Shown here piece by piece: positions 39,721-54,269 of a stretch of 55,655 nucleotides of DNA. A program made the position numbers and the translations under genes. The stretch spans positions 1-55,655 of the forward strand of contig DYFF01000005.1 of assembly GCA_020725335.1 (NCBI GenBank), given 5' to 3'. How positions within the stretch are numbered: the first letter of the stretch is position 1; every line of letters begins with the position of its first letter. Source of the stretch: Thermodesulfovibrio sp. Its GTDB lineage: Bacteria; Nitrospirota; Thermodesulfovibrionia; Thermodesulfovibrionales; Thermodesulfovibrionaceae. The notes under the pieces were generated by a model, which was not told the DNA's origin, made no database searches, and saw only the letters and a program-made list of their open reading frames with translations.

Positions 39721-39752
39721 TTTTTGAACTTTTTCTGAGGTTAATATTACTT
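39721..39752 (+). promoter_or_regulatory. Shared bipartite motif, copy A (upstream of the sigma gene)
   Basis: TTTTTGAAC at 39721-39729, then 17 bases, then TTACTT at 39747-39752. The same arrangement recurs before the genes at 43039 and 49848. The GAAC core is like ECF -35 elements. Problem: the last base lies directly before the sigma-gene ATG at 39753, so a promoter here would start transcription inside the annotated frame. Confidence 0.4.
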
Positions 39753-40301
39753 ATGAATGAAGAACAAGAACTTATTAAAAGAATTTCCCAAGGAGATGAA
39801 GAGGCATTAAAGATGGTTTATCAGAATACCTCAAGAAATGTTTATCAATATATTTTCAGGCTTTGCAACAATAAAGAGACAGCAGAGGATTTAATGATTG
39901 AGACCTATACTCAGGTCTGGCTTTCTGCAAAGAGATTTAAAGGTGATTCCAGAGTTTTGACATGGATATTCGGGATTGCAAGAAACTTGACAATGAATGA
40001 AATAAAAAAAAGAGACTACTGGCATGGTGATTTGACTGACATGGAAAATTGCGGTCCAGAGCAGTTTGGGTTTACCCATGAAAGAGAAACAGAGGATTTA
40101 GTTAATATTGCTATTAGACAACTTTCCGTTAAACACAGAGAAATATTAGACTTAATATTTATGCATGAGATGTCCTATGAGGAAGTGGCAAAGATACTTA
40201 ATATACCTATAAATACAGTAAAAACAAGAATCTTTTATGCTAAAGAGAAACTAAAAGAAATTTTTGAGAATATGGGGGTAAACAAAGATGCTTTCTTCTA
40301 A
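39753..40301 (+). CDS. ECF-type RNA polymerase sigma factor
   Basis: 182 residues. Region 2 spans about 20-95 with NKETAEDLMIETYTQVW and FKGDSRVLTWIFGIARN; region 4 spans about 120-170 with SVKHREILDLIF and SYEEVAKILNIPINTVKTRIFYAKEKL. There are no regions 1 or 3, as in the ECF group. It overlaps the anti-sigma gene by 14 nt, the classic sign of a sigma/anti-sigma pair. The ATG has a GAGG 12 bases upstream, slightly far. It probably controls the secreted-protein genes that follow. Confidence 0.9.
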   Translation: MNEEQELIKRISQGDEEALKMVYQNTSRNVYQYIFRLCNNKETAEDLMIETYTQVWLSAKRFKGDSRVLTWIFGIARNLTMNEIKKRDYWHGDLTDMENCGPEQFGFTHERETEDLVNIAIRQLSVKHREILDLIFMHEMSYEEVAKILNIPINTVKTRIFYAKEKLKEIFENMGVNKDAFF

Positions 40302-40905
40302 AAAATTAGAAGAAATTAAATCAATGCTGCCTTTATATTCAAAGAAACTCCTTTCAAAAAAAGACCAAGATACAATAGAGGCTGTTCTTAAGCAAGATCA
40401 GGAAATGCAAAAAGAACTTAATTTTTGGATGATGATTAATAAAGGATATGAAAAATTAAAAAATGAGATGCCAGAACCTCCAAAGAACATTTATTCAAAA
40501 ATAGTTGCCAATATAGAAAACATAGAAAAGGAAAATAAACAAAAATTCATCTTTCCTAATATATTTAAGTTGAATCCCAAAATTTCATTTGCTCTTATTA
40601 TGGCAGAATTTCTTCTTATAATTGGTTTTATATTTTATATTTTTAATTTAAAATACGAATACAGAACACTTTCTGTAAACGAGATAAAAGCTGATACATC
40701 TTATAAGATAAATGTGGTATTCAAAGAAGACATAAGAGAAAAAGAGATAAGAGAGCTTTTAACTAAAATAAATGCAAGAATAATAGATGGTCCATCCAAA
40801 TCCGGGCTTTATGTATTAGGGATTAAAGATGAAAAAAATAAGGATTACGCACTGGATTTTTTAAGAAAAAGTGATGTGGTTTTTCTTGCAGAACCTGTTA
40901 ATTGA
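40288..40905 (+). CDS. Membrane anti-sigma factor with periplasmic propeptide-like domain
   Basis: 205 residues. A cytoplasmic helical N-terminus (about 1-90) with LPLYSKKLLSKKDQ and an FWMMINKGYEKL helix resembles anti-sigma domains but lacks the zinc HxxxCxxC motif. One membrane helix is at about 101-121. The outside part ends with a beta-alpha-beta-beta-alpha-beta pattern: INVVFKEDI, EIRELLTKINARIIDGPSKSG, YVLGI, and ALDFLRKSDVVFLAEPVN. This resembles the propeptide-like domain of subtilases, including the one at 47620-49722. Anti-sigma function is inferred from the overlap with the sigma gene. Confidence 0.75.
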   Translation: MLSSKKLEEIKSMLPLYSKKLLSKKDQDTIEAVLKQDQEMQKELNFWMMINKGYEKLKNEMPEPPKNIYSKIVANIENIEKENKQKFIFPNIFKLNPKISFALIMAEFLLIIGFIFYIFNLKYEYRTLSVNEIKADTSYKINVVFKEDIREKEIRELLTKINARIIDGPSKSGLYVLGIKDEKNKDYALDFLRKSDVVFLAEPVN

Positions 40906-40992
40906 TTTATTAAAAATTATCTCGGTTTCATTATAACATAAGGCTTTACAGGGACAGAGACCTGAAAAGAAATTATACAGATGGAGTTTAAA

Positions 40993-42924
40993 ATGCGAAT
41001 AGTATGTTTGTTCTCTCTATCAATTCTTCTTTTTATTTTTTATGCAGACTTTGCCCAAACTTATTCAGATCTTGAGCAAAAATTAAGGAATATGGGGATT
41101 GAGGTGACTGATTCCTTAGATTTTAATCAATTAATGCAGAAATATAGAGAGATTGTTCCGAATATTATTGATGAAGCCAATATTAAAGCTGGCAAAATTA
41201 CAGGGATTACAGGGATGTATATATCTTCCAGACCTGCTGACACACCTGAAAAGGAGATTGAGCGAAGAAGAGAGATAATTAATAGTCAATATCAATTAGC
41301 AAGACAAATGCTTGGCGGAATTCCAGAAGGAGAGGAAAATCCGCAAATTGTTGAAGCTATTCCAGTGGAAGGATATATTTTAGTTAGAGGAGGCGAAAAA
41401 GTCTTATGGTATAACAATCAGATAAAACGAGATATTTCATATACAATTAAAGAGACTTTTGAGGGAAATCTTCTTGTAATTCATACTTACAATATTCATA
41501 CTGGAAAGTTTGAAAAAGAAAAAGAGTATGCGCTTGACACTCTCTCAACAAACATAAAAATAAATAACTTTATTGGAAAAACTTGCACTAAATGGAGCTC
41601 AGGTTCTCCAACTGTCTGTCTTAATTGGGCAAGTTATCTTCTATATCAAATTGGAGAAGCCGAAATTTATCCTAATTTTCACTCCGGGGTTGTATCTATC
41701 AATCAAATTGATAAGGGAAAAATTGAAATTCAGGCTGCTACTCCCGATATAAGCTTTCATGCTAAAGACGGACTAACCACAGAAACCACCCATATAGGAT
41801 GCACAAGTGGTAGTTGGAAACTTACTAATGAAGAGTTTGAAAAGTTAATAAATTTTGGAGCAGTCACACTAAAAAAAGAAATAGGTAGCAAGTCTCAAGC
41901 TTTCTCAAGTTGCATACCAGGCTCAACAATGACTCTGTATCTTAAGATAAAAAAAGCAGAGCCTGAAAAATGCAGAGAACCTAAAAATGTAAAGATTGAA
42001 ATACTAAAACCTTCTGATAAAGGCAGATATGAATTTACCGATGATGGAAACACAGGCAGACTTATTCTTGAACTTGAGGCAAAAACTTATCCTGCTAAAT
42101 ATGAGAATTCCATAGAATGGGAAATCCCGGAAATGGAAGGTTCACATAGAATTATCCAGCCTGCTACGGGTTCATTAACACTAAAAGGTCCTAAAGCAGA
42201 AGTGATGTATAAAGGCTTGCCTCCAGACATTGAATCCTTTGGTAGAAAAAAAGTTAAAGCTAAGGTTAATGTTGATGGTTGTATGATTGAAGATACAAAA
42301 GAAATAATGTTTTTTTATCCCCGTGATGCTAAAAACAACCCAGAGGGTAAATATCCCAACTGGTTTTATTACTGGAAGCAGACACCTGCCGCTATGCCTT
42401 TTGGACAAAATGTTAACATAGTTTTTGGGGGTACAGAATTTGACCTTTGTAAAGGCGAGCATGTAATGGCAATTTATAAGCCAGACTATCTCTTTAAGGC
42501 AATTCACATATGCAATCTTACAGAAAAGGTTGGTGGAGATTTTAAAGTTACAATTCCTCTTGTAAGTCGCAATGACTCGTCAACTCTTTCAGAGAAAAAA
42601 CTGATTTCCTATACACATATTGATACCTTTGCAGTATTAGTAATTCATGAATTTACCCACTTTAATCATTACCATACTTGGTTGTCAGGCAAATCCCCAC
42701 AACAGAGAAATGAAGAAGACAATGACGGAGATGGGATTCCTGATAGATTAGAACCAGACATGAAATTTGACCCAAAAAAATTCCAGACCTACTGGGGTGA
42801 AGATGAGGAATTTAAGAACATAAATGGTGATGAGGAGTTTCTCGCCTATGAATCAACATACAATTATCCAATAGGCAAGTTTGATGAATATGACTGGGGC
42901 AAACCAGGTAAAAACTGGAAGTAA
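40993..42924 (+). CDS. Secreted HExxH zinc-protease-like protein
   Basis: 643 residues from the ATG at 40993, preferred over an ATG four codons upstream because GGAG lies 6 nt before it and the signal peptide then starts MRIVCLFSL. The mature N-terminal half is of unknown fold, with conserved-looking Cys. Near the C-terminus VIHEFTHFNHYH gives a HEFTH zinc motif at about 552-556, followed by a Ca-binding-like DNDGDGIPDRLEP and DEEFLAYE, whose Glu could be the third ligand. Probably a secreted metalloprotease or a pseudo-enzyme; substrate unknown. First gene after the sigma/anti-sigma pair, with no copy of the shared motif before it. Confidence 0.7.
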   Translation: MRIVCLFSLSILLFIFYADFAQTYSDLEQKLRNMGIEVTDSLDFNQLMQKYREIVPNIIDEANIKAGKITGITGMYISSRPADTPEKEIERRREIINSQYQLARQMLGGIPEGEENPQIVEAIPVEGYILVRGGEKVLWYNNQIKRDISYTIKETFEGNLLVIHTYNIHTGKFEKEKEYALDTLSTNIKINNFIGKTCTKWSSGSPTVCLNWASYLLYQIGEAEIYPNFHSGVVSINQIDKGKIEIQAATPDISFHAKDGLTTETTHIGCTSGSWKLTNEEFEKLINFGAVTLKKEIGSKSQAFSSCIPGSTMTLYLKIKKAEPEKCREPKNVKIEILKPSDKGRYEFTDDGNTGRLILELEAKTYPAKYENSIEWEIPEMEGSHRIIQPATGSLTLKGPKAEVMYKGLPPDIESFGRKKVKAKVNVDGCMIEDTKEIMFFYPRDAKNNPEGKYPNWFYYWKQTPAAMPFGQNVNIVFGGTEFDLCKGEHVMAIYKPDYLFKAIHICNLTEKVGGDFKVTIPLVSRNDSSTLSEKKLISYTHIDTFAVLVIHEFTHFNHYHTWLSGKSPQQRNEEDNDGDGIPDRLEPDMKFDPKKFQTYWGEDEEFKNINGDEEFLAYESTYNYPIGKFDEYDWGKPGKNWK

Positions 42925-42978
42925 TTATCAGACTGCTATTCAAATAAATTTTTAACTTATCTATTAAATTTTCAAAAA

Positions 42979-43010
42979 TTTTTGAACAAAATTTTCATTT
43001 AATTTTACTC
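42979..43010 (+). promoter_or_regulatory. Shared bipartite motif, copy B
   Basis: TTTTTGAAC at 42979-42987, 17 bases, TTACTC at 43005-43010. It lies 28 bp before the ATG of the secreted protein at 43039, a good promoter distance. It partly overlaps a perfect palindrome TTCAAAAATTTTTGAA (42971-42986). Confidence 0.5.
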
Positions 43011-43038
43011 TTTTTTAAAACACTTAGGAGGAAGTGAT

Positions 43039-43971
43039 ATGCAACAAAATTATGTATGTTTTTATGTTAAAAGTTTATTAACTCTTTTATTTTTGTTTAT
43101 TGGTTCATTAGTTTTTGCTGAAAGTGGTCCCTTAACACACAAGCCTAAGGGAGATGCTCCACCATCAAAGGTGGACCAGATGAGAGAATTACTTCCAGAC
43201 TTAATCGTATCAGAAATTTCTGAGGATAGCGCCGGAAATATAATAGTAAAAATAAAAAATATTGGGAAATCTGGAATTAAAGCATCAGAGTATGAAAGAA
43301 GTAGTAATCAGGCATTTATAGAGCTCACAATAGACGGCAAATCCACAAAAAACATGCTTGCAACTGTTGACCCTCAGAGAGCACTTACACATCCAAATAG
43401 AGAGGTTTATTGGAATACAGGACAAAAGGTATGGCAAGATCCTGCAGACCTTAAAACAGAGGTTATTGTAAGAATTGACCCATCCAATCAAATTAAAGAG
43501 AAAGACAAAAACAACAACGAGTTAAAGAAATTATTTTCTCGCTTTATCCCTGTAAAATCTGATTTGATTGTGAAGCGTATTTATAGATGCGGACCTAATA
43601 TATCATTTTGTATGGAATTTGAGAATAAAGGTAATAAGGAATTTAGAGGGTCCTTCGTTTTCAATGTTGATATATTTCAATTTGGAGTGGATTTAGGAAG
43701 CATAGTTAAGGGACATAATATTATGCTTCATAATAGACAAGGCATTGTAGTAGCTCAGATATCTGGTGGAGGTTCTTATTCTTGCAGAAATGTAGTTATT
43801 CCTGCAAATACTACTTTTTTACCTACTGGTGTGCTATGTAGTTTTGAACGAATTTTCTCAATCACTCCAGATATTCCCGAGGAGGGCTTTGACGTTCAGA
43901 TAAGATTATTAATTAATGAAGAAGGGAAACCCGAGAAACATTCCAGATTTAACTTTCATATTACAAAATAG
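43039..43971 (+). CDS. Secreted protein with two CARDB-like domains
   Basis: 310 residues, signal peptide ending near VFAES. The first domain (about 52-165) begins PDLIVSEIS and ends with the CARDB hallmark DPSNQIKEKDKNNNELKK; the second (about 174-310) begins SDLIVKRIY and has four Cys. CARDB is an Ig-like adhesion fold of bacterial surface proteins. AGGAGG lies 5 nt before the ATG, and motif B precedes it. Partner or ligand is unknown. Confidence 0.7.
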   Translation: MQQNYVCFYVKSLLTLLFLFIGSLVFAESGPLTHKPKGDAPPSKVDQMRELLPDLIVSEISEDSAGNIIVKIKNIGKSGIKASEYERSSNQAFIELTIDGKSTKNMLATVDPQRALTHPNREVYWNTGQKVWQDPADLKTEVIVRIDPSNQIKEKDKNNNELKKLFSRFIPVKSDLIVKRIYRCGPNISFCMEFENKGNKEFRGSFVFNVDIFQFGVDLGSIVKGHNIMLHNRQGIVVAQISGGGSYSCRNVVIPANTTFLPTGVLCSFERIFSITPDIPEEGFDVQIRLLINEEGKPEKHSRFNFHITK

Positions 43972-44002
43972 ATGGAACGTTTTCAAAAAGGAGGATTTTA
44001 AA

Positions 44003-45577
44003 ATGAAATTTTTAAGAATTTTAACAACATTAGTGTTTCTTTTATTTACAATAGCTATATTTGCTTACGCACAGAGTGACAAAATTCAGAAACCTTCATT
44101 ACAGGAATTTTCAACTCCTCAACAAACTACGCCTATTTCACCTAAAGTTACATCAGAAACCATTAAAGAACCTAAACCCGGAACTAGCAGTCCATATAGT
44201 CTAAATATAGTTAGCTTTTCTGCCTCATCAACTACCGTTAACTATGGAGATGAAGTGACACTTAGATGGACAATAAGAGGCAATAATCTATCAGGCTTGC
44301 AACTTGAAATAACTCCAGGTATTGGTGCAATTCCCCTTTCACGAACAGATTATAGAAATGAATCTTTTACAATAGAAGGCTCTAAAACAATAAAACCTTC
44401 CAAAACAGAAAAATATATTTTGAGGATTTCAGCACCCGATCCATTCAGATTAGATGTTGACAGAACAGGCCATGTTCATCAACGTACTTTAGAGGCATCA
44501 AAGGCATTAATTATAACTGTAAAAAAACCAAAAATAGAAAATGTTAAACCTTTAGTTGATCAGAAAACAATGAAGATAAAATTCCTTGCGAAAAATACAG
44601 GTGATGGAGATCTCACATCAAGTCCTATACAGGTTGAATATAATGTTATCAATAGCTTATCAGGACCTTCATTAGCTTCAGGCAGATTTACAACCACTAA
44701 TTTAAACATCCGAGCAGGTGAACAGGTTCAGTTAGGGGAGATAACTTTACCAGACCGAGGAAAAGCTTTAAGTGAGGATTCTATCCTCATAGGTGTAGGT
44801 ATCAATCCAATATACAGATTGCCTCTTGAGCGAGATTCCGATACCTATGAGCATAAATGGGATAGAAAACGTTTAACTATTAATAATGATCTTATATCAA
44901 TTTTTGGAGGGTTAATCACAGGTTCTATAAGATTAAACAATTTTGACGGTTCTTCAGGTGCCACTTTGACCCATAATCCATATAAGGCAAATGATTCATA
45001 TGTTGAGATAATGGGAAGAAGGGAGACTTTTTCCATTCCACGTTTTGATCATACTAAGGGGATATATGATTACAGAGGTTTTATAAACAATGTGAACGCT
45101 GCTTTTTCGGGAAGAGATTTATTCTATGTAGAAGATGGAAAGATTAAATTCAGAATAAGTTTTGAGACAAGCGGGACAGAGATTAGGGGTTATGAATATA
45201 CTTGGGGAGTGTGGCATGATGCAACAGCTCCAGATTATAATTTTACAAAATTTGATATTACCGTATATTTCTTGCCAGGATTAAGGAACGGAAAAATTAC
45301 ATACACAGATGTTCAAGTTGTTCCTGATGTAAGAGGTACTTTTGTTGGTGCCTGGGATGCTTTTTTATCTGAAAGACTTGAAAGAGATATTGATGAAAAA
45401 ATTAAAAATGAATTGATAAAAAGAATAAAATCAAAGCTTATGGAAGAATCAATCAGAACAAGAATAGAAAATAAAATTGAAGAATTAATAACCCATAATC
45501 GTCTTTTTAATATTTATAGAGTAGTTAATGTTATTGGAGAAGGTGGAAACATTGTGATTGAATATATTGAAAATTAA
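44003..45577 (+). CDS. Secreted Ig-like/CARDB-containing protein of unknown function
   Basis: 524 residues from the ATG at 44003, chosen because AGGAGG is 9 nt upstream and it begins the signal peptide (MKFLRILTTL ... AYAQ). After a Pro/Thr-rich linker comes an Ig-like segment (SFSASSTTVNYGDEVTLRW), a CARDB-like middle (KIKFLAKNTGDGDL), an unknown beta-rich region with a FDITVYF element, and a final charged amphipathic helix (about 455-510). No catalytic motif was seen. Confidence 0.65.
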   Translation: MKFLRILTTLVFLLFTIAIFAYAQSDKIQKPSLQEFSTPQQTTPISPKVTSETIKEPKPGTSSPYSLNIVSFSASSTTVNYGDEVTLRWTIRGNNLSGLQLEITPGIGAIPLSRTDYRNESFTIEGSKTIKPSKTEKYILRISAPDPFRLDVDRTGHVHQRTLEASKALIITVKKPKIENVKPLVDQKTMKIKFLAKNTGDGDLTSSPIQVEYNVINSLSGPSLASGRFTTTNLNIRAGEQVQLGEITLPDRGKALSEDSILIGVGINPIYRLPLERDSDTYEHKWDRKRLTINNDLISIFGGLITGSIRLNNFDGSSGATLTHNPYKANDSYVEIMGRRETFSIPRFDHTKGIYDYRGFINNVNAAFSGRDLFYVEDGKIKFRISFETSGTEIRGYEYTWGVWHDATAPDYNFTKFDITVYFLPGLRNGKITYTDVQVVPDVRGTFVGAWDAFLSERLERDIDEKIKNELIKRIKSKLMEESIRTRIENKIEELITHNRLFNIYRVVNVIGEGGNIVIEYIEN

Positions 45578-45681
45578 TGTATAATATGGCAGGGAAAAGC
45601 AGATGAAAGCGAAAAATAAGAGTTTAGTAAAATTTGGATTATACATAGTATTTTCTTATAAAAAATCTACGGAGGGATAAC

Positions 45682-47607
45682 TTGATACGGTTTATTATTG
45701 TCTCTATCGGTTTTTTTTCCATTTTTTATAATGCGCTCTCATTTGCGAAAACAGAAAAAGAATTATTGAATGTTCTATCCCCTACAGAAGGCTCTGAAAT
45801 AATTTCCAAAAAGCCAGAGATTAAAGTAGAGTTTGCTGAAACAGTTAAACCGGAAACAATAGTGGTTCTTTTTGACGGAACAGATGTTACTCAATTAATT
45901 AAATTTACTGAAAAGGGTTTTGAATTCAAACCGTTTATGGTAGTTCAGCCAGGTTCTCACACTATTGCCATTACAGCACAGGACAAAGAAGGTAAACAAA
46001 TAGAAAAGACCTTTTCCTTCAAGACCAGGCACTCAGACAATTTTGATGAAGCCTGGTCAAACAATAATGCAACAATAATATACCAGGGGATATTAAAAAA
46101 ACCAGACTCGCTTGGGAATCTGCCTGATTCAAAGATTGAAGGAAATCTTAGCTCTGATACTAAATTAAAAAATCAAACATGGGAGTTCACTTTTAACACA
46201 AATCTTAGATATTTTGACCAAAGTGAACCACTTGCACCACCACAGAAGAAGGGTTATGACATAGTTAATTGGATTTTGACAGGTACATATACAAAAGATT
46301 CGTTTAAAGCAAAAACAAGCATTGGAGATATTCAAATAACAGAAACTCCCTACACTATTTCTGGACTTAGTCGTAAGGGAGGATTGTTCAATTTTGAATA
46401 TGATATTTTTCAGTTAAATGCCTTTACAGTCAAAAGTGAAGCAGTCTATGGTTCAAGAGGCGGAACAGGTATAGAAACATCTAATAATGATCACATAATG
46501 GGTTTATCAGCGGGATTAAAACTCTTTGATAAAAAGATGGAAATTAAAACTGTATACATTACAGGCGGTGAACCTTCAACAGGTTTTGGTATTTCTGGTA
46601 CAGGAGGTAATAAGCAGGGAGAAGTCTTGGGATTTCTTTTGATCTCTAATTTTTTTGAAAACAAATTAAATACAGATTTTGAGCTTGATTTTTCAAGATA
46701 TGACCCTGATAGTTCTGATGAGTTTGGTAAAAGCAGTGATAAGGCTTACAGAGCCAAGTTTTATGGAACAATAGATAGATACAACTATGAAGCAATGTAT
46801 GAGTACATTGGTAGAGATTATCAGGTAGTTGGTAATACTATACAGAAGGACAGAGAGGGTTTAAGCTTAAAAGGTGGAGCTAACTGGGACTGGCACTCTT
46901 TGAATCTTTCCTTATCAAGATACAATGATAACGTGAGAGGAGATGAACTTTTCCCCCGAATATATAATACCCAGTTTGTAGCAGACTATTCGTTCAATAA
47001 AATTCCAGAACTTCCAATGGGTTTGAATTATCAAAAATTTATCCAGAAAAGCACAAAGGAACCTGAAGCTACTACCAAAATAAATACAGAAACGGATACT
47101 CTTTCAGGCAGAATAAGTTATGTGAAGGACAAACTGAATATAGGATTTACAACAGCTTATTCAGTCATGAATGACAAAACAGAAGCTAATAATGATACGA
47201 CTTCTGTAACTTATACATTTACGCCTGCCTATAATGATGTTAATTATTCTGTTAGCACGAGCTTTTCGCTTAATCAGTCTAAGGTCAAACTTACCGGTGT
47301 GAGAACAGATAGTTATGCTACAAATCTTGATTTAAAAACTAAATTCTTAAATCAAAAAGCAACTTTCGATGTAGCCGGAACTTATACAATAACAAAGGCA
47401 AATGATGGTTTAACTAATACGAGGAATTTAAATGGAACGGTTCAACTTGCCTATGACCTTGCTAAATTTGTAAGAGACTACCTAAAACCTGTAATAGCAC
47501 TTAAGGCAACTTACTCAAAAATAACTGATAAAATTTCCTCATCAAATAACAGAGATGAATTTGTCCTTTATCTTGTTTTTACTTCAAACATTCCATTTTC
47601 ATTTTAA
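45682..47607 (+). CDS. Probable outer membrane beta-barrel with N-terminal Ig-like domain
   Basis: 641 residues from a TTG start with GGAGGG 5 nt upstream. Signal peptide to about residue 22. An Ig-like domain (about 30-115: LSPTEGSEIISKKPEIKVEF, VQPGSHTIAITAQDKEG) precedes a region of about 500 residues built of alternating strands and short turns rich in Tyr, Asn and Thr. The protein ends LVFTSNIPFSF with a terminal Phe, the usual recognition signal for outer-membrane barrels. Likely to be a surface anchor or export pore for neighbouring secreted proteins. No named family recognised. Confidence 0.65.
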   Translation: MIRFIIVSIGFFSIFYNALSFAKTEKELLNVLSPTEGSEIISKKPEIKVEFAETVKPETIVVLFDGTDVTQLIKFTEKGFEFKPFMVVQPGSHTIAITAQDKEGKQIEKTFSFKTRHSDNFDEAWSNNNATIIYQGILKKPDSLGNLPDSKIEGNLSSDTKLKNQTWEFTFNTNLRYFDQSEPLAPPQKKGYDIVNWILTGTYTKDSFKAKTSIGDIQITETPYTISGLSRKGGLFNFEYDIFQLNAFTVKSEAVYGSRGGTGIETSNNDHIMGLSAGLKLFDKKMEIKTVYITGGEPSTGFGISGTGGNKQGEVLGFLLISNFFENKLNTDFELDFSRYDPDSSDEFGKSSDKAYRAKFYGTIDRYNYEAMYEYIGRDYQVVGNTIQKDREGLSLKGGANWDWHSLNLSLSRYNDNVRGDELFPRIYNTQFVADYSFNKIPELPMGLNYQKFIQKSTKEPEATTKINTETDTLSGRISYVKDKLNIGFTTAYSVMNDKTEANNDTTSVTYTFTPAYNDVNYSVSTSFSLNQSKVKLTGVRTDSYATNLDLKTKFLNQKATFDVAGTYTITKANDGLTNTRNLNGTVQLAYDLAKFVRDYLKPVIALKATYSKITDKISSSNNRDEFVLYLVFTSNIPFSF

Positions 47608-47619
47608 GGAGGATAGATT

Positions 47620-49722
47620 ATGAAGAAGTATAGTTTATTGATAATGCTCTGGTTAATATTTGGTTTAACTACTTTATCATATGCTCAGGTAACTGTTATA
47701 GCAAGCAAAACCAATATCCCAAGAGGGCAATCAAGTGTGGTAACTTTAAATTATCAGGTAACAAATCCTAATTATACTCCATGCTCTATGACCTCTAACT
47801 TTGGTACCTTTGAAATAGGAAATGTTGCTTTAGGAACAAACTCCACGCCTCTAACAATCAATATTCCATCTAATGTAAATTTTATGCAAGCCATAGAATC
47901 TTTAAATATTCCATTTAGAGTTATTGAAAAGGCAATAAAGATGGGCTTTAATAAGTTTCAATATGTAAGAACGTTTTCTTCCCAAACATGCTTTGGTGCT
48001 TATGTGCCATCTACTACAGTTACATTTTACATAACAACCGAAGCAGCAGCTGATTTTGATATCAAGCGAATTGAGCTATATTTTGAAAATCGCCGTGCAG
48101 AGATTACAGTACCAAAGAACTACAAAGGACTCAAAGCCTTTGCAGACATTAAATTTACAGGCTCAGGACTACTCAAAGGTTACTGGGAAGTAGATGGAAG
48201 AATTATAAGTTATGTTAATCAACATATAACTTATGGACGGGAAGTGACCCTTCAGACTCCTGCTATACCTCCCTTGCCTACTTTTGAAACAGGTACTCAT
48301 ATAGTTAGATTTGTTATCACAAGTCCCTCTGTTGACATTCCTATTCCTTCAGCCCTTTATTTTGTTACCGCCCAAGAAGTCAAGGAAATAGTAAGAATAA
48401 AGCTACTCCACCCTGAAGATAAATCAAAGCTTGATTTTAGCCCTCAGAAATTCACATGGGAAAAACTTGATGGGACGATGCTTTATCTAATTCAGTTTTT
48501 TGATAACAAAGATTCAAAACCCATATTTTCTGCCTATACAAGAGAAGGAGTTTATCATTTGCCGGAATCTATTTTTAAGAAAATATTCCAGCCTGGTAAA
48601 AATTATTACTGGAAAGTCATAGGCTTTGATGAAAGCCACAATACAGTGGGAGAAAGTAATGTATGGGAATTTTCATTTAATATGAGTGCTTTTATCCCGG
48701 GGCAGATAATCATTGCTCTTTCAAGGTCTGATTTTTCAGAAGGATTTATTGAAGAAATAAAACATAAATATGAGGTGGAAGTCCTTGATTTTTTTCCTTT
48801 AGAATCAGTTGGTTCATTTGTGATTCTTCTTAAAACTGATAGAAACATTTTTGAGAAAATTGACCAGCTTAAAGGTGAAAGCAAGATAATTCTTGCCCAG
48901 CCAAATTTTATATTTCAAACCTTTTCAGAACCCATGAGAAAGCTTCAGTACGCCTTTGACCTTATGAAAATTGATAAACTCCATAGGTTTTATAAAGGTA
49001 GAGGCATAAAAGTGGCAATTATTGACACAGGTGTTGATTTTGAACATAGGGATTTAAAGGACAGAGTTGTTTTTGCTAAAAACTTTGTAAAAAATGACTC
49101 CTATAAAAAAGAGATTCACGGAACAGCTGTGGCGGGTGTAATAGGAGCAAATATTAATAACCTCGGGATATGTGGCGTTGCACCTGAGGCAGAAATATAT
49201 GCTTTAAGGGCTTGTAGCCAACTGGGAGAAAAAGCAGAAGGTAGATGCACCAGTTTAAGCATTGCTCAGGCCATGGATGAGGCTATAAAAAAAAATGTAA
49301 GAGTTATAAACATGAGCTTTGGCTCATCAAATTATGACAGGCTGTTGAGCAGAATGATAGATTCTGCAGCAAAGGCAGCTATTTTTGTAGTAGCACCTGT
49401 TTCAAAAATGGGCAACTCAATAACCTTTCCTGCCTCTCATTCAGAGGTAATCTCAGTTGGGGGGATTGACGAAAAGGGGAATCCCTATCCAGCTAAAGAA
49501 ATAGCAGATAAAGCAAAAGTTTTAGCTCCAGCTGAAAATATATTTACTACTATTCCCCATGACAAACATAATTTTATGTCAGGTGTTTCTCTTTCTTCAG
49601 CTTATGTTAGTGGACTTTTAGCTTTGTATTGTGAAAAAGGAAATAGTAAAAAAATCCCAATCTTCAAAGGTAATCTTTGCAAGTGGGAAGAGGAATTATT
49701 TGGTATTTCCTTATGCGACTGA
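47620..49722 (+). CDS. Secreted subtilisin-like (S8) serine protease
   Basis: 700 residues. Signal peptide ending near SYAQ; N-terminal beta-rich part with fibronectin-like segment (about 265-350: LLHPEDKSKLDFSPQKFTW). A propeptide-like domain at about 365-445 (PGQIIIALSRSDF ... AQPNFIFQTF) precedes the S8 domain with D469 (IIDTGVD), H500 (EIHGTAVAGV) and S657 (MSGVSLSSA). The Ser block reads GVSLSSAYVSG instead of GTSMAAPHVAG, and the oxyanion-hole region VVAPVSKMGN departs from VVAAAGN, so activity may be altered. AGGAGG sits 7 nt before the ATG. Only 12 nt separates it from the barrel gene. Confidence 0.85.
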   Translation: MKKYSLLIMLWLIFGLTTLSYAQVTVIASKTNIPRGQSSVVTLNYQVTNPNYTPCSMTSNFGTFEIGNVALGTNSTPLTINIPSNVNFMQAIESLNIPFRVIEKAIKMGFNKFQYVRTFSSQTCFGAYVPSTTVTFYITTEAAADFDIKRIELYFENRRAEITVPKNYKGLKAFADIKFTGSGLLKGYWEVDGRIISYVNQHITYGREVTLQTPAIPPLPTFETGTHIVRFVITSPSVDIPIPSALYFVTAQEVKEIVRIKLLHPEDKSKLDFSPQKFTWEKLDGTMLYLIQFFDNKDSKPIFSAYTREGVYHLPESIFKKIFQPGKNYYWKVIGFDESHNTVGESNVWEFSFNMSAFIPGQIIIALSRSDFSEGFIEEIKHKYEVEVLDFFPLESVGSFVILLKTDRNIFEKIDQLKGESKIILAQPNFIFQTFSEPMRKLQYAFDLMKIDKLHRFYKGRGIKVAIIDTGVDFEHRDLKDRVVFAKNFVKNDSYKKEIHGTAVAGVIGANINNLGICGVAPEAEIYALRACSQLGEKAEGRCTSLSIAQAMDEAIKKNVRVINMSFGSSNYDRLLSRMIDSAAKAAIFVVAPVSKMGNSITFPASHSEVISVGGIDEKGNPYPAKEIADKAKVLAPAENIFTTIPHDKHNFMSGVSLSSAYVSGLLALYCEKGNSKKIPIFKGNLCKWEEELFGISLCD

Positions 49723-49744
49723 ATAGAACTTGATTAAGGAAATT

Positions 49745-49776
49745 TTTTTGAACATTTAGTAGACAAAATTTTACTA
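49745..49776 (+). promoter_or_regulatory. Shared bipartite motif, copy C
   Basis: TTTTTGAAC at 49745-49753, 17 bases, TTACTA at 49771-49776. It lies in the 125-nt gap before the gene at 49848, about 70 nt before its start codon, and would begin a second transcript within the cluster. Confidence 0.5.
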
Positions 49777-49847
49777 AGTAATAACGTTATTAATTGAAAA
49801 GGGAGAAAATCCTTAAAGTCTCAAAAATAAAAAAGAGGAGGTGAAGA

Positions 49848-50354
49848 TTGAACAGAAGGCTATTTATTCTTATCATTTTTTGTTTTTGCTTTGCTTTCAG
49901 TGCTCATGATAGCATCGGACAGCAGACGTTAAATGTTACACAACCAAAAGTTAACGAAAACATTCAAAAGCAACAACAGCAAACACCCCAGCCACAAAAG
50001 CCTAACGAAAACATTCCAAAACTGCAACAGCAACAGAGACCTCAGCCACCAAAGTTTAATGAAAACATCCCGAAACAACAACCGCCACCTACGGTAAAGA
50101 GCCGTGAATTCCGAAACATTGACTTTATCGCCATTCCTTACGTAAAAAGCAGAGAGTTTCTTAACATTGATTTTGAAGCAATCACGCTCACAAAGAGCAG
50201 GGAGTTCTCTAATATTGATTTTACTGCTACTCCCCTAACTAAGAGTAGAGAATTCACTAACATTAACTTTGAAGCAATTAAGGTTACAAAGAGCAGAGAA
50301 TTTACCAACATTGATTTTATTGGTGTAAAAATTCTTGACTTACAGAAAAAATAA
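49848..50354 (+). CDS. Secreted Pro/Gln-rich protein with five KSREF repeats
   Basis: 168 residues from a TTG with AGGAGG 9 nt upstream. Signal peptide to about residue 25. The middle is low complexity with three copies of an NENI-containing Gln/Pro unit. The C-terminal 80 residues are five tandem 16-residue repeats with consensus TKSREFxNIDFxAIxx. No named repeat family is recognised. The alternation of charged and hydrophobic residues suggests a beta-strand per repeat. A structural or binding role on the cell surface is likely. Confidence 0.7.
   Translation: MNRRLFILIIFCFCFAFSAHDSIGQQTLNVTQPKVNENIQKQQQQTPQPQKPNENIPKLQQQQRPQPPKFNENIPKQQPPPTVKSREFRNIDFIAIPYVKSREFLNIDFEAITLTKSREFSNIDFTATPLTKSREFTNINFEAIKVTKSREFTNIDFIGVKILDLQKK
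50094..50333 (+). repeat. Five 48-bp tandem coding repeats (KSREF units)
   Basis: Five consecutive 48-bp units encode KSREF[RLST]NI[DN]F. The protein is more conserved than the DNA: codon choices differ between copies (AGCCGT, AGCAGA, AGCAGG, AGTAGA), showing old copies under protein-level selection and not a recent DNA expansion. Confidence 0.85.
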
Positions 50355-50386
50355 AAAATTGTAAAGAAAGCGTAAGAGGAGGAAAA

Positions 50387-50803
50387 ATGAAAGTAAATTT
50401 TAAAAAGACTTTAGCAATTTTTGGAACAGCAACCTTTTTGGTATTTTCGGTAACTTTTGCATTAGCCCATGACCCTTCAACCACAAATTACCCCCAGTTT
50501 AGTCATGCTCATGTTAAAGGAAAAATAACCGCACCGGATGGCTCTGTTATTCGCCTTCCCGAAGGAGCAATGGTAAGAGCTATGTCAAGTGAAGCATTTC
50601 GTTTTATACCACAGGAATGTCATATGAATCAAAATCCTGTTACTTCTCCTATAAATCCAAATACAGGTGAATATGAATTGATATTTTATTTCAGAGTTGA
50701 TTCTGAGAAATGCAGAGACGAATTTCAAAAAAGACCCTTAGATACATCAAAAATACAAATTATTAATGCTCCTGGATATGAATTTAAAAGAAAAACGAAT
50801 TAG
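50387..50803 (+). CDS. Small secreted protein of unknown function
   Basis: 138 residues. Signal peptide ending FALAH; then SHAHVKGKITAPDGSVIRLPEGAMVRA, which reads like the start of a carboxypeptidase-regulatory or transthyretin-like fold, and two Cys (about 78 and 105) that may pair. AGGAGG precedes the ATG. No motif names it. Nine bases separate it from the next gene, indicating co-transcription. Confidence 0.65.
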   Translation: MKVNFKKTLAIFGTATFLVFSVTFALAHDPSTTNYPQFSHAHVKGKITAPDGSVIRLPEGAMVRAMSSEAFRFIPQECHMNQNPVTSPINPNTGEYELIFYFRVDSEKCRDEFQKRPLDTSKIQIINAPGYEFKRKTN

Positions 50804-50812
50804 GAGGACAAA

Positions 50813-51385
50813 ATGAGAAAGTTATTTGCTTGTATTAGTATTTTTAGTCTAATTTTACTTGCATTTTCTTTAACCTATGCTGAGACACCCATTCAACCAA
50901 AAGAACCTCTTAAATCTCCTGTTGACAAAGAGAAATTAGAAAGGATTAAACCTCCTCCACCTCCAAAAAAATGTCCTGATCCAGCAGTTCAGGGAATTGA
51001 TTTTGCCATTGTATCAAAGACAAGTCAGTTTTCAGGAAAAGTAAAAATAACAGGCGTGGTAAAGAACATTGGCTTAGAGCCATACATTTCAGGACCAAAT
51101 CAGCAGGCTGTTTATCTCTATGAAGTTCCAATGGGAGGAAAAGCTAACCTTGTAGCTACAAAAAAATTCCAGAACCTAAATCCTGGGCAGGAAGTAAAGG
51201 TTACTTATGAGCGTAACTGGAATGCTTCCTCACCTGCAGAAGGTGAATTCCCCCCTTCCTATAAAGTTGTTATAGCATATGACCCTGACATTACATTAGA
51301 CAGTAATCCCAAAAACGATGACTGCAACATGAACAACAATCAAAAGGAAAGAAGCGGTACAGAGATAAACGCACTTTTTAGATAA
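50813..51385 (+). CDS. Secreted CARDB-like protein
   Basis: 190 residues. Signal peptide ending LTYAE, then a linker with a poly-Pro run (KPPPPPKK) and a CARDB-like domain at about 62-180 (AVQGIDFAIVSK, ITGVVKNIG, NLNPGQEVKV, VVIAYDPDITLDSNPKNDDCNMNNN). The closing D/N-rich block is the usual CARDB end. AGGAGG sits 6 nt before the ATG. Same architecture as the proteins at 43039 and 51953, suggesting paralogues that share a partner. Confidence 0.7.
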   Translation: MRKLFACISIFSLILLAFSLTYAETPIQPKEPLKSPVDKEKLERIKPPPPPKKCPDPAVQGIDFAIVSKTSQFSGKVKITGVVKNIGLEPYISGPNQQAVYLYEVPMGGKANLVATKKFQNLNPGQEVKVTYERNWNASSPAEGEFPPSYKVVIAYDPDITLDSNPKNDDCNMNNNQKERSGTEINALFR

Positions 51386-51390
51386 AAAAG

Positions 51391-51427
51391 TTTCCCTGCA
51401 GGAAGCCTCAGGCTTTCTGCAGGAAAA
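51391..51427 (+). other. Long intergenic hairpin
   Basis: An inverted repeat forms a stem of about 16 pairs (core CTGCAGGAAGCC / GGCTTTCTGCAG, one G-T pair) around the loop TCA, flanked by A runs on both sides. On the + strand no T tract follows, so it is a weak terminator but could block or protect mRNA ends. On the - strand the hairpin is followed by T6. Confidence 0.65.
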
Positions 51428-51455
51428 AACATAATTTAGAAAAAGGAGGTTTAAA

Positions 51456-51932
51456 ATGAGAATTTACAGCAAAATATTATTGGTAACATTTTTAGTTTTA
51501 GCAATTTTGAGTTTTGTCTATGCAGAGGAAAAGCTTACAATTAAGGCGATTAAGTGTTGTATAGCTGGCACTTATGAAGGAGTAACAAATGATTCACCAA
51601 ACTGCCCTTACGGTCCTAAGCCTGGAAAATTTACAATGATAATCAAGCAGACAGATTGCAGTTCAGCGGTTTATGGAGAAGTTTTAGATAGTTCAACAGG
51701 AGCACCGAAGACAAAATTTGAAGGGACAGTAACACCCATACCAAGGAGTAATTGTTGTATGCTTACAGGAAAAGCTAAGGGAATGCCTGGAACTCCTGAT
51801 GCTGAATGTATTCATGAAGTGAAGGCAAAAATTTGCAAGAACGCTACAGGGAAGTGGGAAGTGATAAATGGGACATACACAGCAATTGCAGGTAAATGTT
51901 GTAGTGGTACTTTTTCTATTAAGCAAAGATAA
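51456..51932 (+). CDS. Secreted Cys-rich protein of unknown function
   Basis: 158 residues. Signal peptide ending VYAEE; the mature part has about ten Cys including CC pairs at IKCCIAG, SNCCMLTG and GKCCSG near the end, suggesting disulfides in the periplasm or outside. The pattern CCIAGTYEG and YGEVLDSSTGAPKTKFEGTV resembles a small beta barrel or lipocalin-like design, but no family is recognised. AAGGAGG precedes the ATG. It follows the hairpin at 51391-51427. Confidence 0.65.
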   Translation: MRIYSKILLVTFLVLAILSFVYAEEKLTIKAIKCCIAGTYEGVTNDSPNCPYGPKPGKFTMIIKQTDCSSAVYGEVLDSSTGAPKTKFEGTVTPIPRSNCCMLTGKAKGMPGTPDAECIHEVKAKICKNATGKWEVINGTYTAIAGKCCSGTFSIKQR

Positions 51933-51952
51933 AAAATAGAAAGAAGGAAAAA

Positions 51953-52513
51953 ATGAAGATTAAATATTTGATAAGTTTTTTATTGTTGTCTATATTTTTA
52001 TACTCCCATGCTTTTTGCGAAAAAGCAAAAGAGGTCTCTCCAGCACCAGTTAAACCATCAGATTCAACACAGCAGAGGATAGGACCACCTCCGATGCCAG
52101 ACCTTATCATTGTAGCAGATAAAATTGAACTTGTTGGCACACATTACATAAATTTTGCCAGTGCTTGCAGAGGCGAATGTATCATTGCAAGGATAAAATT
52201 TCGCATAGAAAACCGTGGTAATGCTGACGTAAGAGAGAGATTCAAGGTTTCAATCATGCAACAGCTTCCTTCACCTCCGGGAGGAGAACAGGAAGTTTTG
52301 ACAGATGACCCATTTATAAATGGGTTGAGACGGTCTGGAGTGGGCGAGTTTTATGCAAACATTACATGGCCTATATATTTTCCTTTAAGCATGGCAGGGC
52401 AGAAAGTGAAAATAAGAGCAGTGGTGGACAGTCTAAATAATGTTAGAGAGAGCGATGAGACTTTAAATGTGAGCAGATGGCTTGAGATACAACTTCCAGA
52501 GAGAAAAAAGTAA
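51953..52513 (+). CDS. Secreted CARDB-like protein
   Basis: 186 residues. Signal peptide ending FCEK; a short Pro/Ser linker; a CARDB-like domain at about 45-180: PDLIIVADKIEL, ARIKFRIENRGNADVRERFKVSIM, VGEFYANITWPIY and VKIRAVVDSLNNVRESDETLN. Two Cys (about 69 and 73) sit in an SACRGEC loop. It lies 20 nt after the Cys-rich gene, so the two are probably in one transcript. Confidence 0.7.
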   Translation: MKIKYLISFLLLSIFLYSHAFCEKAKEVSPAPVKPSDSTQQRIGPPPMPDLIIVADKIELVGTHYINFASACRGECIIARIKFRIENRGNADVRERFKVSIMQQLPSPPGGEQEVLTDDPFINGLRRSGVGEFYANITWPIYFPLSMAGQKVKIRAVVDSLNNVRESDETLNVSRWLEIQLPERKK

Positions 52514-52536
52514 AGTCAGAAAGGAGATGAATTAAA

Positions 52537-53037
52537 ATGAAAAAATCAAAGATTTTATCAGTCCTATTTATTATAATTTTAATTATACTTTGGAATACAA
52601 TGAGTTATGCTGAACAGAAATCAATTTCTATTCCAAAAGGAACGACTTTAGAAAAACTTGGCTCAGGTCATTTTAAATTTAAACTTCCTAATGGTCGTAT
52701 CATAGAGATAAAGGAATTTAACCCTACAACTGGAATTATCGGATATGTTTCTATCATTGACCCAGAACCACCCGGTAAACCAATAGAGGGGAAGAAAGGT
52801 CAATTTATAGGTTTAGTAAGATCAAAACCCTTAAAGATAATCTCAGGTACAGAATATCTTCAGATTGATAATGAAATTATTTGGATAAAGAAAGCACAAA
52901 AAGTTCCAAAGTCAGATTACGTCATGATTGACGATGACATAGCCTGGTTGCCGTTGGAGCTCCGGTTTCAGACTGAAGAAAGAGAACTAAAGGGGCTTTC
53001 ACCTCAGGCAGATCCACCTGGAATTTTAAGGAAATGA
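52537..53037 (+). CDS. Secreted protein of unknown function
   Basis: 166 residues. Signal peptide ending SYAEQ. The mature sequence is beta-rich (SISIPKGTTLEKLGSGHFKFKLPNGRIIEIKEF) with repeating short strands (GTEYLQIDNEIIWIKKAQ and SDYVMIDDDIAWLPLEL). No Cys is present. No named family is recognised. The ATG has a GGAGATG nearby, and it lies 23 nt after the previous stop. Confidence 0.6.
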   Translation: MKKSKILSVLFIIILIILWNTMSYAEQKSISIPKGTTLEKLGSGHFKFKLPNGRIIEIKEFNPTTGIIGYVSIIDPEPPGKPIEGKKGQFIGLVRSKPLKIISGTEYLQIDNEIIWIKKAQKVPKSDYVMIDDDIAWLPLELRFQTEERELKGLSPQADPPGILRK

Positions 53038-53123
53038 GAAAAAAGACAGAGAACATAGAAATTTAAATACTTAAAAATTTTATCCAAATTTTCTGCTAAT
53101 TTGAGGATAGTAAGGAGGGCAAA

Positions 53124-54269
53124 ATGAGAAATAAAATCTGTATCATGAGTGTATTAGTTTTTATTTTAACAGCTATTACTTTTTCTCTATCTTTTGCAGA
53201 GGGAAGGGTTATTGGTAGGAGTGTACATTTTACACCTTATCCTGTAAAAGTTGGAGAGACTACGAGAATTACGGTAAGGTTTACTGTAACAGGCGCTCCA
53301 GTTAATTTGACAGCGACTGTAGAACAAACAATACCCCGATATGAAGGACCTCCACCTCCTACTATAATTTTAGGAACCTTTAATCCCGGAGAGCATGGAG
53401 TTGATATATTTAGATATACTGTTCCAGCTTCACCTCCAGAAAAGATATGCTTCAATATAAAGATGACGGGCGGAGAATTTCGGAATGTATGCTTAAAACG
53501 CGGAAAAGGATCGACTGGATGGTATATGACAGTTGATAGTTTTGGGCAGTGGATAGAAGCTATTCCTACTCCTGTGCAAGCACCAGTTCCTACTACAGAA
53601 AAACCAGACTTAAGAATTGTAGGCAATTTAGCAATTGATAGAGTTTTATCAATTCAGAATATTGGAAGAGCACCTACTCCTTCAGGAATTGATATAGATG
53701 TAGTCAGAGAATGTTTCGTGGAAGGAAGATGGGTTCCTTCACCTGAGTGGTTATCAATGGGGCTGGGCAAAAGGACCTTGCTTGCTGGAGAGTCTACTGA
53801 TTTAAGGTTAGGGACTTTAATGGGACAATGTCCTGCAGGCACTACAAAAGTGCGTGTTATTGTTGATCCCCGAAACAAGATTGATGAAATGGATGAGAAC
53901 AATAACATGTTAGAGGCTAATGTAATGGCTAATTTGAAGATAGTTCATTTTTCTACTTTTTATCCTATAGTAGGTATTGGAGGTACGCCAGGGTTCAGAG
54001 TGAGTTTTGAAATAAAAAACACAGGCATTGGAGATGCTGGTTCTTTTATATGGGAGATAAGCGTTTTTAGGGATGGACAATGGAGGAGTTTTATTGGAGA
54101 GAGAATCACGAAGTTAAATTCTGGGGAAAATATAGAAATAACGAGAAATGTTGGAGAGAGTATAAGGGAAGGAGAGAGAATTCGATTAAGAGTTGATGTA
54201 TTGAATGAAATTCCTGAAATTCAAGAGGATGATAATATTAGAGAGATTATTGTTAGGGGTAGGGGATAA
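53124..54269 (+). CDS. Secreted protein with two CARDB domains
   Basis: 381 residues. Signal peptide ending SFAEG. An N-terminal Ig-like domain (about 30-125) precedes two CARDB domains (about 160-262 and 265-378), ending RVIVDPRNKIDEMDENNN and RLRVDVLNEIPEIQEDDNIRE, the clearest CARDB endings in the cluster. AAGGAGGG precedes the ATG. Last gene of the secreted-protein cluster. The 86-nt gap before it contains no good copy of the shared motif. Confidence 0.78.
   Translation: MRNKICIMSVLVFILTAITFSLSFAEGRVIGRSVHFTPYPVKVGETTRITVRFTVTGAPVNLTATVEQTIPRYEGPPPPTIILGTFNPGEHGVDIFRYTVPASPPEKICFNIKMTGGEFRNVCLKRGKGSTGWYMTVDSFGQWIEAIPTPVQAPVPTTEKPDLRIVGNLAIDRVLSIQNIGRAPTPSGIDIDVVRECFVEGRWVPSPEWLSMGLGKRTLLAGESTDLRLGTLMGQCPAGTTKVRVIVDPRNKIDEMDENNNMLEANVMANLKIVHFSTFYPIVGIGGTPGFRVSFEIKNTGIGDAGSFIWEISVFRDGQWRSFIGERITKLNSGENIEITRNVGESIREGERIRLRVDVLNEIPEIQEDDNIREIIVRGRG

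Follow-up and report, generated by a model that had tools for sequence, protein, structure and literature searches.

A putative ECF sigma factor regulon of exported proteins with a propeptide-like anti-sigma factor in Thermodesulfovibrio

A stretch of 55,655 nucleotides of DNA from Thermodesulfovibrio sp. (contig DYFF01000005.1, forward strand; the whole stretch is here called the window) carries a gene for an extracytoplasmic function (ECF) sigma factor, SIG, overlapped by the gene for a membrane anti-sigma factor, ASIG, and trailed by a long run of genes for exported proteins. The locus raises the question of what holds these genes together and to what the sigma factor may respond. The answer we favour, at about even probability, is an ECF regulon of exported products with a core of SIG, ASIG, an outer-membrane barrel, and an exported subtilase, in which a protease would operate the switch.

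The original prediction, an ECF-controlled surface structure or secretion system, is partly supported: the sigma/anti-sigma pair and the co-oriented cluster behind it are real, and the count of eleven signal-peptide genes is corrected to twelve co-oriented genes after ASIG, reaching to position 54269. All 12 of their products have a hydrophobic N-terminus, most with an A-X-A-like cleavage site, and the genes follow in the order HEFTH, CARDB1, U553, BARREL, SUBT, REP168, U138, CARDB2, U158, CARDB3, U166, and CARDB4. Genomes and loci used for comparison are designated by G and L numbers.

The sigma factor and its predicted promoters

39753..40301, + strand: SIG, ECF sigma factor, 182 residues; Pfam Sigma70_r4_2 (E 4.7e-13) and Sigma70_r2 (E 1.3e-11), NCBIfam sigma70-ECF (1.3e-26)
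39721..39751, + strand: promoter 1, TTTTTGAAC-N19-ACT, before SIG, predicted to be sigma-dependent
42979..43009, + strand: promoter 2, TTTTTGAAC-N19-ACT, upstream of CARDB1, predicted to be sigma-dependent
49745..49775, + strand: promoter 3, TTTTTGAAC-N19-ACT, upstream of REP168, predicted to be sigma-dependent

SIG consists of sigma2 and sigma4 domains only, within about 180 residues. Three of the four perfect TTTTTGAAC-N19-ACT sites in the whole 1.8-Mb genome lie in the window; all three are intergenic, have identical spacing, and stand before a co-oriented gene (SIG, CARDB1, or REP168), and by sequence their -35 element is of the GAAC type expected of an ECF factor's own promoters. The fourth site is outside the cluster and ends in AAACT. 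Only this strong form of the promoter was used, because the relaxed pattern TTGAAC-N17-WNACT is at background level, with 20 genomic matches against 24 in the reversed control. Across the five carrier genomes, 17 of 21 perfect sites immediately precede SIG or a gene of the cluster families, the other four being unassigned. The 11 genomes that lack the core hold 11 perfect sites in total, which is roughly the carrier background (four unassigned sites in five genomes), and wherever retained cluster genes were read in these 11 genomes, no perfect site was found at them.

The accessory set is partly dispersed to unlinked loci in G004 and G005, with the promoter present there or immediately beside the operon. 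The dispersed units are REP168-U138, CARDB2-U158-CARDB3, U158-CARDB3, REP168-U138 with a 422-residue gene, and a CARDB-like gene adjoining one for a 474-residue exported protein. Scattering of the genes in relatives had originally been named as an observation that would speak against a common system. Scattering is indeed seen in these two genomes, but it does not refute ECF control, because the dispersed accessory genes still carry the site, and the idea stands in the form of a regulon. Together with their sites, the dispersed genes very probably mark out a regulon, and sigma-dependent control is well supported by sequence.

Two genomes without the sigma core, G001 and G015, retain REP168-U138-CARDB2 (L208/L237; L230/L236). 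Upstream of the retained REP168 operon in G001 stands TTTTGAAT-N19-ACT, in which the -35 GAAC has become GAAT. The REP168 start in G015 is fused at GAGG to a 65-bp stretch that is homologous to the region upstream of SIG (local score 85, compared with 42 for the best of 500 shuffles) and has GAAA in place of GAAC; the junction is a scar left by deletion of the core. The proposed ECF control of the cluster is strongly supported, as far as promoter sequences can tell: the promoter is specific to the cluster, persists at dispersed loci, and has decayed where the sigma gene is gone.

In promoter 1, the end of the -10 element lies 1 nt ahead of the SIG start codon, and the Shine-Dalgarno sequence (GAGG) is located between -35 and -10. 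An arrangement of this kind, with the -10 element ending 1–2 nt before the SIG start, is common to the window, G004, G005, G012, G013, and G128, the last of which belongs to another family. Given the overlap of promoter 1 with the SIG start codon, transcription from it would be expected to start within SIG and to supply ASIG rather than SIG.

A propeptide-like domain in the anti-sigma factor

40288..40905, + strand: ASIG, membrane anti-sigma factor, 205 residues, overlapping the SIG gene

ASIG is composed of an anti-sigma domain (residues about 1–90), a transmembrane helix (97–120), a disordered linker (about 121–137), and a propeptide-like βαβ-βαβ domain (138–205). As expected for an anti-sigma factor adjacent to its sigma gene, the N-terminal part matches the ChrR (6e-5) and RsiW (1.4e-3) profiles; zf-HC2 is found in 18 of the 23 ASIG family members, and the Zn-ligand cysteines are missing from the window copy. 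In the AlphaFold2 model, based on a 23-sequence alignment (mean predicted local distance difference test score, pLDDT, of 85.9), a helical anti-sigma domain and one membrane helix are followed by a linker segment (123–133) with pLDDT below 50, and by a compact domain (138–205) at about 95 that is predicted to have the βαβ-βαβ fold of a subtilase propeptide.

The subtilisin propeptides 1spb, 1scj, and 3whi are among the top matches of this domain in structure comparison (Z 8.2–8.3), and 3a3o, a Tk-propeptide lacking the last five residues that was solved bound to subtilisin according to the title of the entry, is a close structural match as well. The Pfam family Fervidolysin_NPro-like (PF22148) matches ASIG with E 7e-4 (20.3 bits, just below the cut-off of 21) and the prodomain of SUBT with E 0.016, and is detected in 6 of the 23 ASIG family members at E up to 0.01, the best being 3.7e-5. 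Using hhalign, the C-terminal domain of ASIG (ASIG_C) connects to the C-terminal part of GspD (GspD_C) at 97.5%, and the GspD_C tails connect to S8 prodomains at 96%. A subtilase-propeptide-like fold for the periplasmic domain of ASIG is supported by these comparisons. This domain, which was overlooked in the original prediction, is the most informative feature of the locus. A conserved acidic residue that was considered as a subtilase-specific mark of ASIG_C was dropped; it is found in ten S8-linked members, but not in those from Nitrospirales or Gammaproteobacteria.

Domains of this type are also displayed by secretins. GspD proteins of the type II secretion system end in a propeptide-like domain in several Thermodesulfovibrionales families (L117-L121; e.g., L119:2302-4545 and L120:4398-6635), and the secretin tail of L119 matches PF22148 with E 1.1e-14. 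In L120, an S8+FN3 gene is located two genes upstream of gspD. By displaying a propeptide, a secretin could offer a docking site to a secreted subtilase.

Protease genes beside the anti-sigma domain

47620..49722, + strand: SUBT, 700 residues, fusion of SUBT_N (an Ig-like/FN3-like exported domain), a prodomain, and an S8 subtilase

SUBT matches Peptidase_S8 with E 1.3e-34 and has the Asp, His, and Ser residues of the triad; SUBT_N and S8, fused in the window gene, are separate proteins in Gammaproteobacteria. The ASIG profile was searched in 296 Nitrospirota genomes, where its matches stand beside subtilases, beside Peptidase_C14/DUF4384 proteins (a Nitrospira-like family), and in one case beside a TPR-CHAT protein; a genome scan with a narrower anti-sigma alignment gave 20 loci. 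With a single set of hidden Markov models (HMMs), a subtilase (S8), caspase-like, or CHAT gene is found in 32 of the 35 loci that have the propeptide-like domain, and in 25 of 27 when the eight loci fetched via protease or core searches are left out. Of the three loci without such a gene, two are at a contig end, with the subtilase of the same genome on another contig, and the third has a contig end close by. No protease gene of these types was found within about 5 kb at any of 20 anti-sigma loci detected by the N-terminal part only.

Nitrospira-type anti-sigma factors (L103-L113, L106, L124) adjoin exported Peptidase_C14/DUF4384 proteins, often together with a divergent DUF4384 gene, and L107 (G248) has both caspase-like and TPR-CHAT genes.

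Proposed mechanism

According to the site distribution, it is highly probable that SIG would read the TTTTTGAAC-N19-ACT promoters to express CARDB1-U553-BARREL-SUBT and REP168-U138-CARDB2-(U158-CARDB3...). From what is known of the family, we hold with equally high confidence that the membrane protein ASIG would retain SIG in the resting cell through its cytoplasmic domain. The propeptide-like domain of ASIG would then be presented to the periplasm on a flexible linker; the domain itself is supported, and its use in this manner we infer. As a more tentative step, which we rate at clearly less than even although it is the most economical reading, the exported subtilase, once active in the periplasm, may dock on the ASIG domain and clip the linker or stem, after which further proteolysis would free SIG, and caspase-like or CHAT proteases may play the same part in the cousins. 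In the model, the disordered linker at residues 121–137 appears compatible with site-1 cleavage. Promoter 1 may provide negative feedback, which we rate at somewhat less than even: it would induce ASIG and not SIG, and SIG would be supplied by read-through from the mutS2 operon.

In its complete form, the scheme describes an anti-sigma factor with a free-standing propeptide-like bait. Binding or cleavage of the bait by a subtilase, caspase-like, or CHAT protease would report the presence of active protease outside the inner membrane and activate a regulon that comprises the barrel, the protease, and surface proteins, and the promoter overlapping SIG would induce the inhibitor only. We consider this complete scheme rather unlikely to hold in every part.

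A simpler account, to which we assign an appreciable but clearly less than even probability, retains only the ECF regulon. Here, ASIG would carry an ordinary ligand-binding or stability sensor that resembles a propeptide by fold only, and the protease and barrel would be mere products that act outside the cell, e.g., in nutrient proteolysis or surface display. Several observations favour such a sensor or count against the protease-operated switch. The domain has a ferredoxin-like fold, which is common and can score as well as propeptides do; because the unrelated Mesd and mitochondrial ribosomal S6-like chains tie with the propeptides in structure comparison, structure alone is no proof of propeptide kinship. 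Direct hhalign comparison of ASIG_C with S8 prodomains is weak (probability 14%), and for this reason the homology claim is carried by the GspD bridge and the Pfam matches. Furthermore, ASIG stops short of the tail that would fill the subtilase active site. The same domain type, besides occurring on GspD secretins, accompanies caspase-like and CHAT proteases, the active sites of which are not subtilase-like, and because of these proteases the domain need not act as a subtilase inhibitor. As for SUBT, the position of the oxyanion-hole Asn aligns to SK, with a shifted GN following; SK is also present in L023, and SI in G012 and G013 (L024/L025), with the triad intact. Since this position is not Asn, the activity of SUBT may be reduced, and the enzyme may be more effective in binding than in cleavage. 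Finally, the contrast between the two types of anti-sigma loci (32 of 35 against none of 20) is strong but not a clean probability, in that many of the counted protease loci are close relatives, flank lengths differ somewhat, and the HMMs were built from the positive set.

An ordinary sensor is at odds with the finding that the domain is accompanied almost without exception by a protease gene next door, whereas the anti-sigma N-terminus by itself shows no such association. In L034-L036, L100-L101, L166-L168, and L172-L173, the protease gene lies directly behind ASIG, often overlapping it, and more than a shared fold is likewise indicated by the matches in Pfam to the prodomain family of subtilases and by the GspD tails as a bridge.

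The barrel and the conserved core

45682..47607, + strand: BARREL, 641 residues, ending in ..PFSF, Ig-like domain and large outer-membrane beta-barrel

The AlphaFold2 model of BARREL (pLDDT 73) has an Ig-like domain at residues 29–116 and about 23 long strands at 198–636; on the basis of this model, BARREL is an outer-membrane barrel, which may serve as a pore for the proteins of the regulon, as an anchor, or as an uptake channel. Among the 11 near-complete genomes of the genus, the subtilase is present in five and the core is absent in six. The gene order in G012 and G013 is mutS2-TIGR725-SIG-ASIG-CARDB1-U553-BARREL-SUBT-REP168-U138-CARDB2. In G128, from the other family, the same order is reduced to SIG-ASIG-BARREL-SUBT, and the same four core genes are found in G162, split over two contigs. 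The arrangement BARREL-SUBT_N-SIG-ASIG-S8 is present in three Gammaproteobacteria (L166, L173, L174; the L174 contig ends just past ASIG) and in one Nitrospiria genome (L036/L165), and L183 reads BARREL-SUBT_N-SIG before the contig ends. The module in Nitrospirales is SIG-ASIG-S8, without a barrel. Judged from gene content, the core is the sigma factor, anti-sigma factor, and protease, to which the barrel and SUBT_N form a frequent second unit, and the CARDB and small proteins a changing accessory set. Core gene order, by the same comparison, is conserved beyond chance, in that other genera and another phylum show it as well.

An alternative that we consider unlikely regards the locus as an outer-membrane export or assembly system. 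BARREL would be a translocator or usher-like pore with SUBT_N and the CARDB/Ig proteins as passengers, SUBT would mature these, and the sigma factor would match supply to the state of assembly. Consistent with this, BARREL and SUBT_N are adjacent even where no protease domain is attached (L029, L032, L114), the model of BARREL places an Ig-like domain in the N-terminal part, and the closest structural matches to this model are the MtrB-type barrel (MtrB, Z 19.6, 403 residues aligned) and ushers (FimD, 18.0; FimD/PapC ushers, about 18). However, many large barrels, TonB-dependent receptors among them, give Z values in this range, the cluster has no gene for a chaperone, plug, or periplasmic energiser, and the passenger set differs between species. 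The original idea of a single built structure or secretion apparatus is not favoured: the accessory set varies by species, as would be expected of a regulon of secreted proteins more than of a fixed machine.

Insertion of a sigma/anti-sigma pair next to unrelated exported genes in the mutS2-kdsA interval, for which it may be said that HEFTH, U166, and CARDB4 look like local neighbours and that the core is missing from many genomes of the genus, is very improbable, as it is contradicted by the conserved order, the cluster-specific promoters, their retention by dispersed genes, and their decay after loss of the sigma gene.

Comparison with known systems

Proteolytic control of ECF anti-sigma factors is classical, as exemplified by RseA/DegS in Escherichia coli and RsiW in Bacillus subtilis. 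The window shares with these systems an ECF sigma factor, an overlapping gene for a single-pass anti-sigma factor with an N-terminal anti-sigma domain, and an exported protease. It differs in that the putative site-1 protease belongs to the same cluster and regulon, in the propeptide-like nature of the sensor, and in lacking a DegS/PDZ element. What appears to be new is thus a variant of protease-linked ECF signalling in which the anti-sigma factor has a propeptide-like domain, proteolytic ECF control itself being known.

Actinobacterial ECF54 neighbourhoods contain subtilases and CHAT-domain proteins, proteolytic control has been proposed for them, and the group is described as lacking an anti-sigma factor (PMC8999054). 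The subtilase context is shared, whereas the window has an anti-sigma factor, carrying the propeptide-like domain, and so falls outside ECF54. In Craspase, Csx29 (TPR-CHAT, of the caspase family) cleaves Csx30 and frees an ECF sigma factor (CASP-sigma) that controls its own locus (PMC10028731). That system is cytoplasmic and gated by CRISPR, Csx30, unlike ASIG, is no membrane protein carrying a propeptide-like domain, and no genes for Cas7-11, Csx29, or Csx30 are present in the cluster. Kaur and co-workers described neighbourhoods of ECF sigma factors and caspase-like peptidases as conflict systems with EACC/TRADD-N adaptors, with no anti-sigma factor noted (PMC8195603). Coupling of an ECF factor to caspase-like proteins is common to these and to the present family, which in contrast features exported proteases and a membrane anti-sigma factor.

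As for subtilisin propeptides (inhibitor I9-like/Fervidolysin_NPro-like), the ASIG domain has the βαβ-βαβ fold and an ..AEPN-like last strand, but forms the C-terminus of an anti-sigma factor, is encoded apart from the protease, and is without the active-site tail. BARREL has its large size in common with MtrB-type and usher barrels, but has no sequence relation to them, has other neighbours, and has an N-terminal Ig-like domain. A search of the literature, which did not extend to the main ECF reclassification paper, gave no description of a propeptide-like anti-sigma factor or of this gene set. Assignment to a defence system was rejected, as PADLOC returned generic domain-level matches (subtilase, IetS, caspase, TPR) and no system; a named secretion system was rejected likewise, since Pfam and NCBIfam give domain-level matches only, none of which points to one.

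A recognisable anti-sigma domain that predicts an adjoining protease gene, together with an exact promoter that defines the regulon, offers a genome-wide handle on a protease-linked ECF class in poorly studied bacteria. If docking takes place as proposed, a module for protease folding would have been reused as a signalling receptor, with one scheme serving three unrelated protease families.

Accessory proteins and flanking genes

40981..42924, + strand: HEFTH protein, 647 residues, zinc-protease-like motif only, judged a neighbour and not a member
43039..43971, + strand: CARDB1, exported, 310 residues, CARDB 1.8e-5, conserved in G005, G012, and G013
44003..45577, + strand: U553, exported, family without assignment, 524 residues from the likely start
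49848..50354, + strand: REP168, exported, Gln/Pro-rich, with five SREFxNIDFxAI repeats; has its own operon with the motif at unlinked loci in G004 and G005
50387..50803, + strand: U138, exported, always behind REP168
50813..51385, + strand: CARDB2, exported, Ig/CARDB-like, 190 residues
51456..51932, + strand: U158, exported, Cys-rich; at unlinked loci has its own motif with CARDB3 in G005 and with CARDB2 in G004
51953..52513, + strand: CARDB3, exported, CARDB 4e-5
52537..53037, + strand: U166, exported, candidate member, without a relative among the carrier loci that were read
53124..54269, + strand: CARDB4, exported, two CARDB domains, CARDB 4.5e-14, candidate member

Profile searches of the window proteins gave no useful Pfam match for HEFTH, U553, REP168, U138, U158, or U166, and significant CARDB matches for three proteins, CARDB1, CARDB3, and CARDB4. 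The start of U553 is probably at 44003, preceded by a good ribosome-binding site, and not at 43916. Of the 16 genomes of the genus, only that of the window has CARDB4. HEFTH was ruled out as a component by its unlinked position in four carriers (G004, G005, G012, G013), its presence in three sigma-less genomes (G001, G011, G015), and the absence of the promoter motif. The proposed membership therefore holds for the barrel and the subtilase, which belong to the conserved core, and not for a pair of proteases, since HEFTH is unlinked and independently distributed in relatives, and one protease is left. Repeat tails like that of REP168 are seen in exported proteins adjoining the barrel in other families (L028:6896-7744; L029:4058-5344).

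The cluster is flanked by housekeeping genes, mutS2 and a TIGR00725-like gene before it and kdsA after it. Two further genomes of the genus have the cluster within the same flanks, and a third has the flanking genes directly side by side, with no cluster between them. No RNA elements or tRNAs were found in the window. Between CARDB2 and U158, at 51385-51456, lies a GC-rich inverted repeat, CCTGCAGGAAGCC...GGCTTTCTGCAGG, which has no T-run on the + strand.

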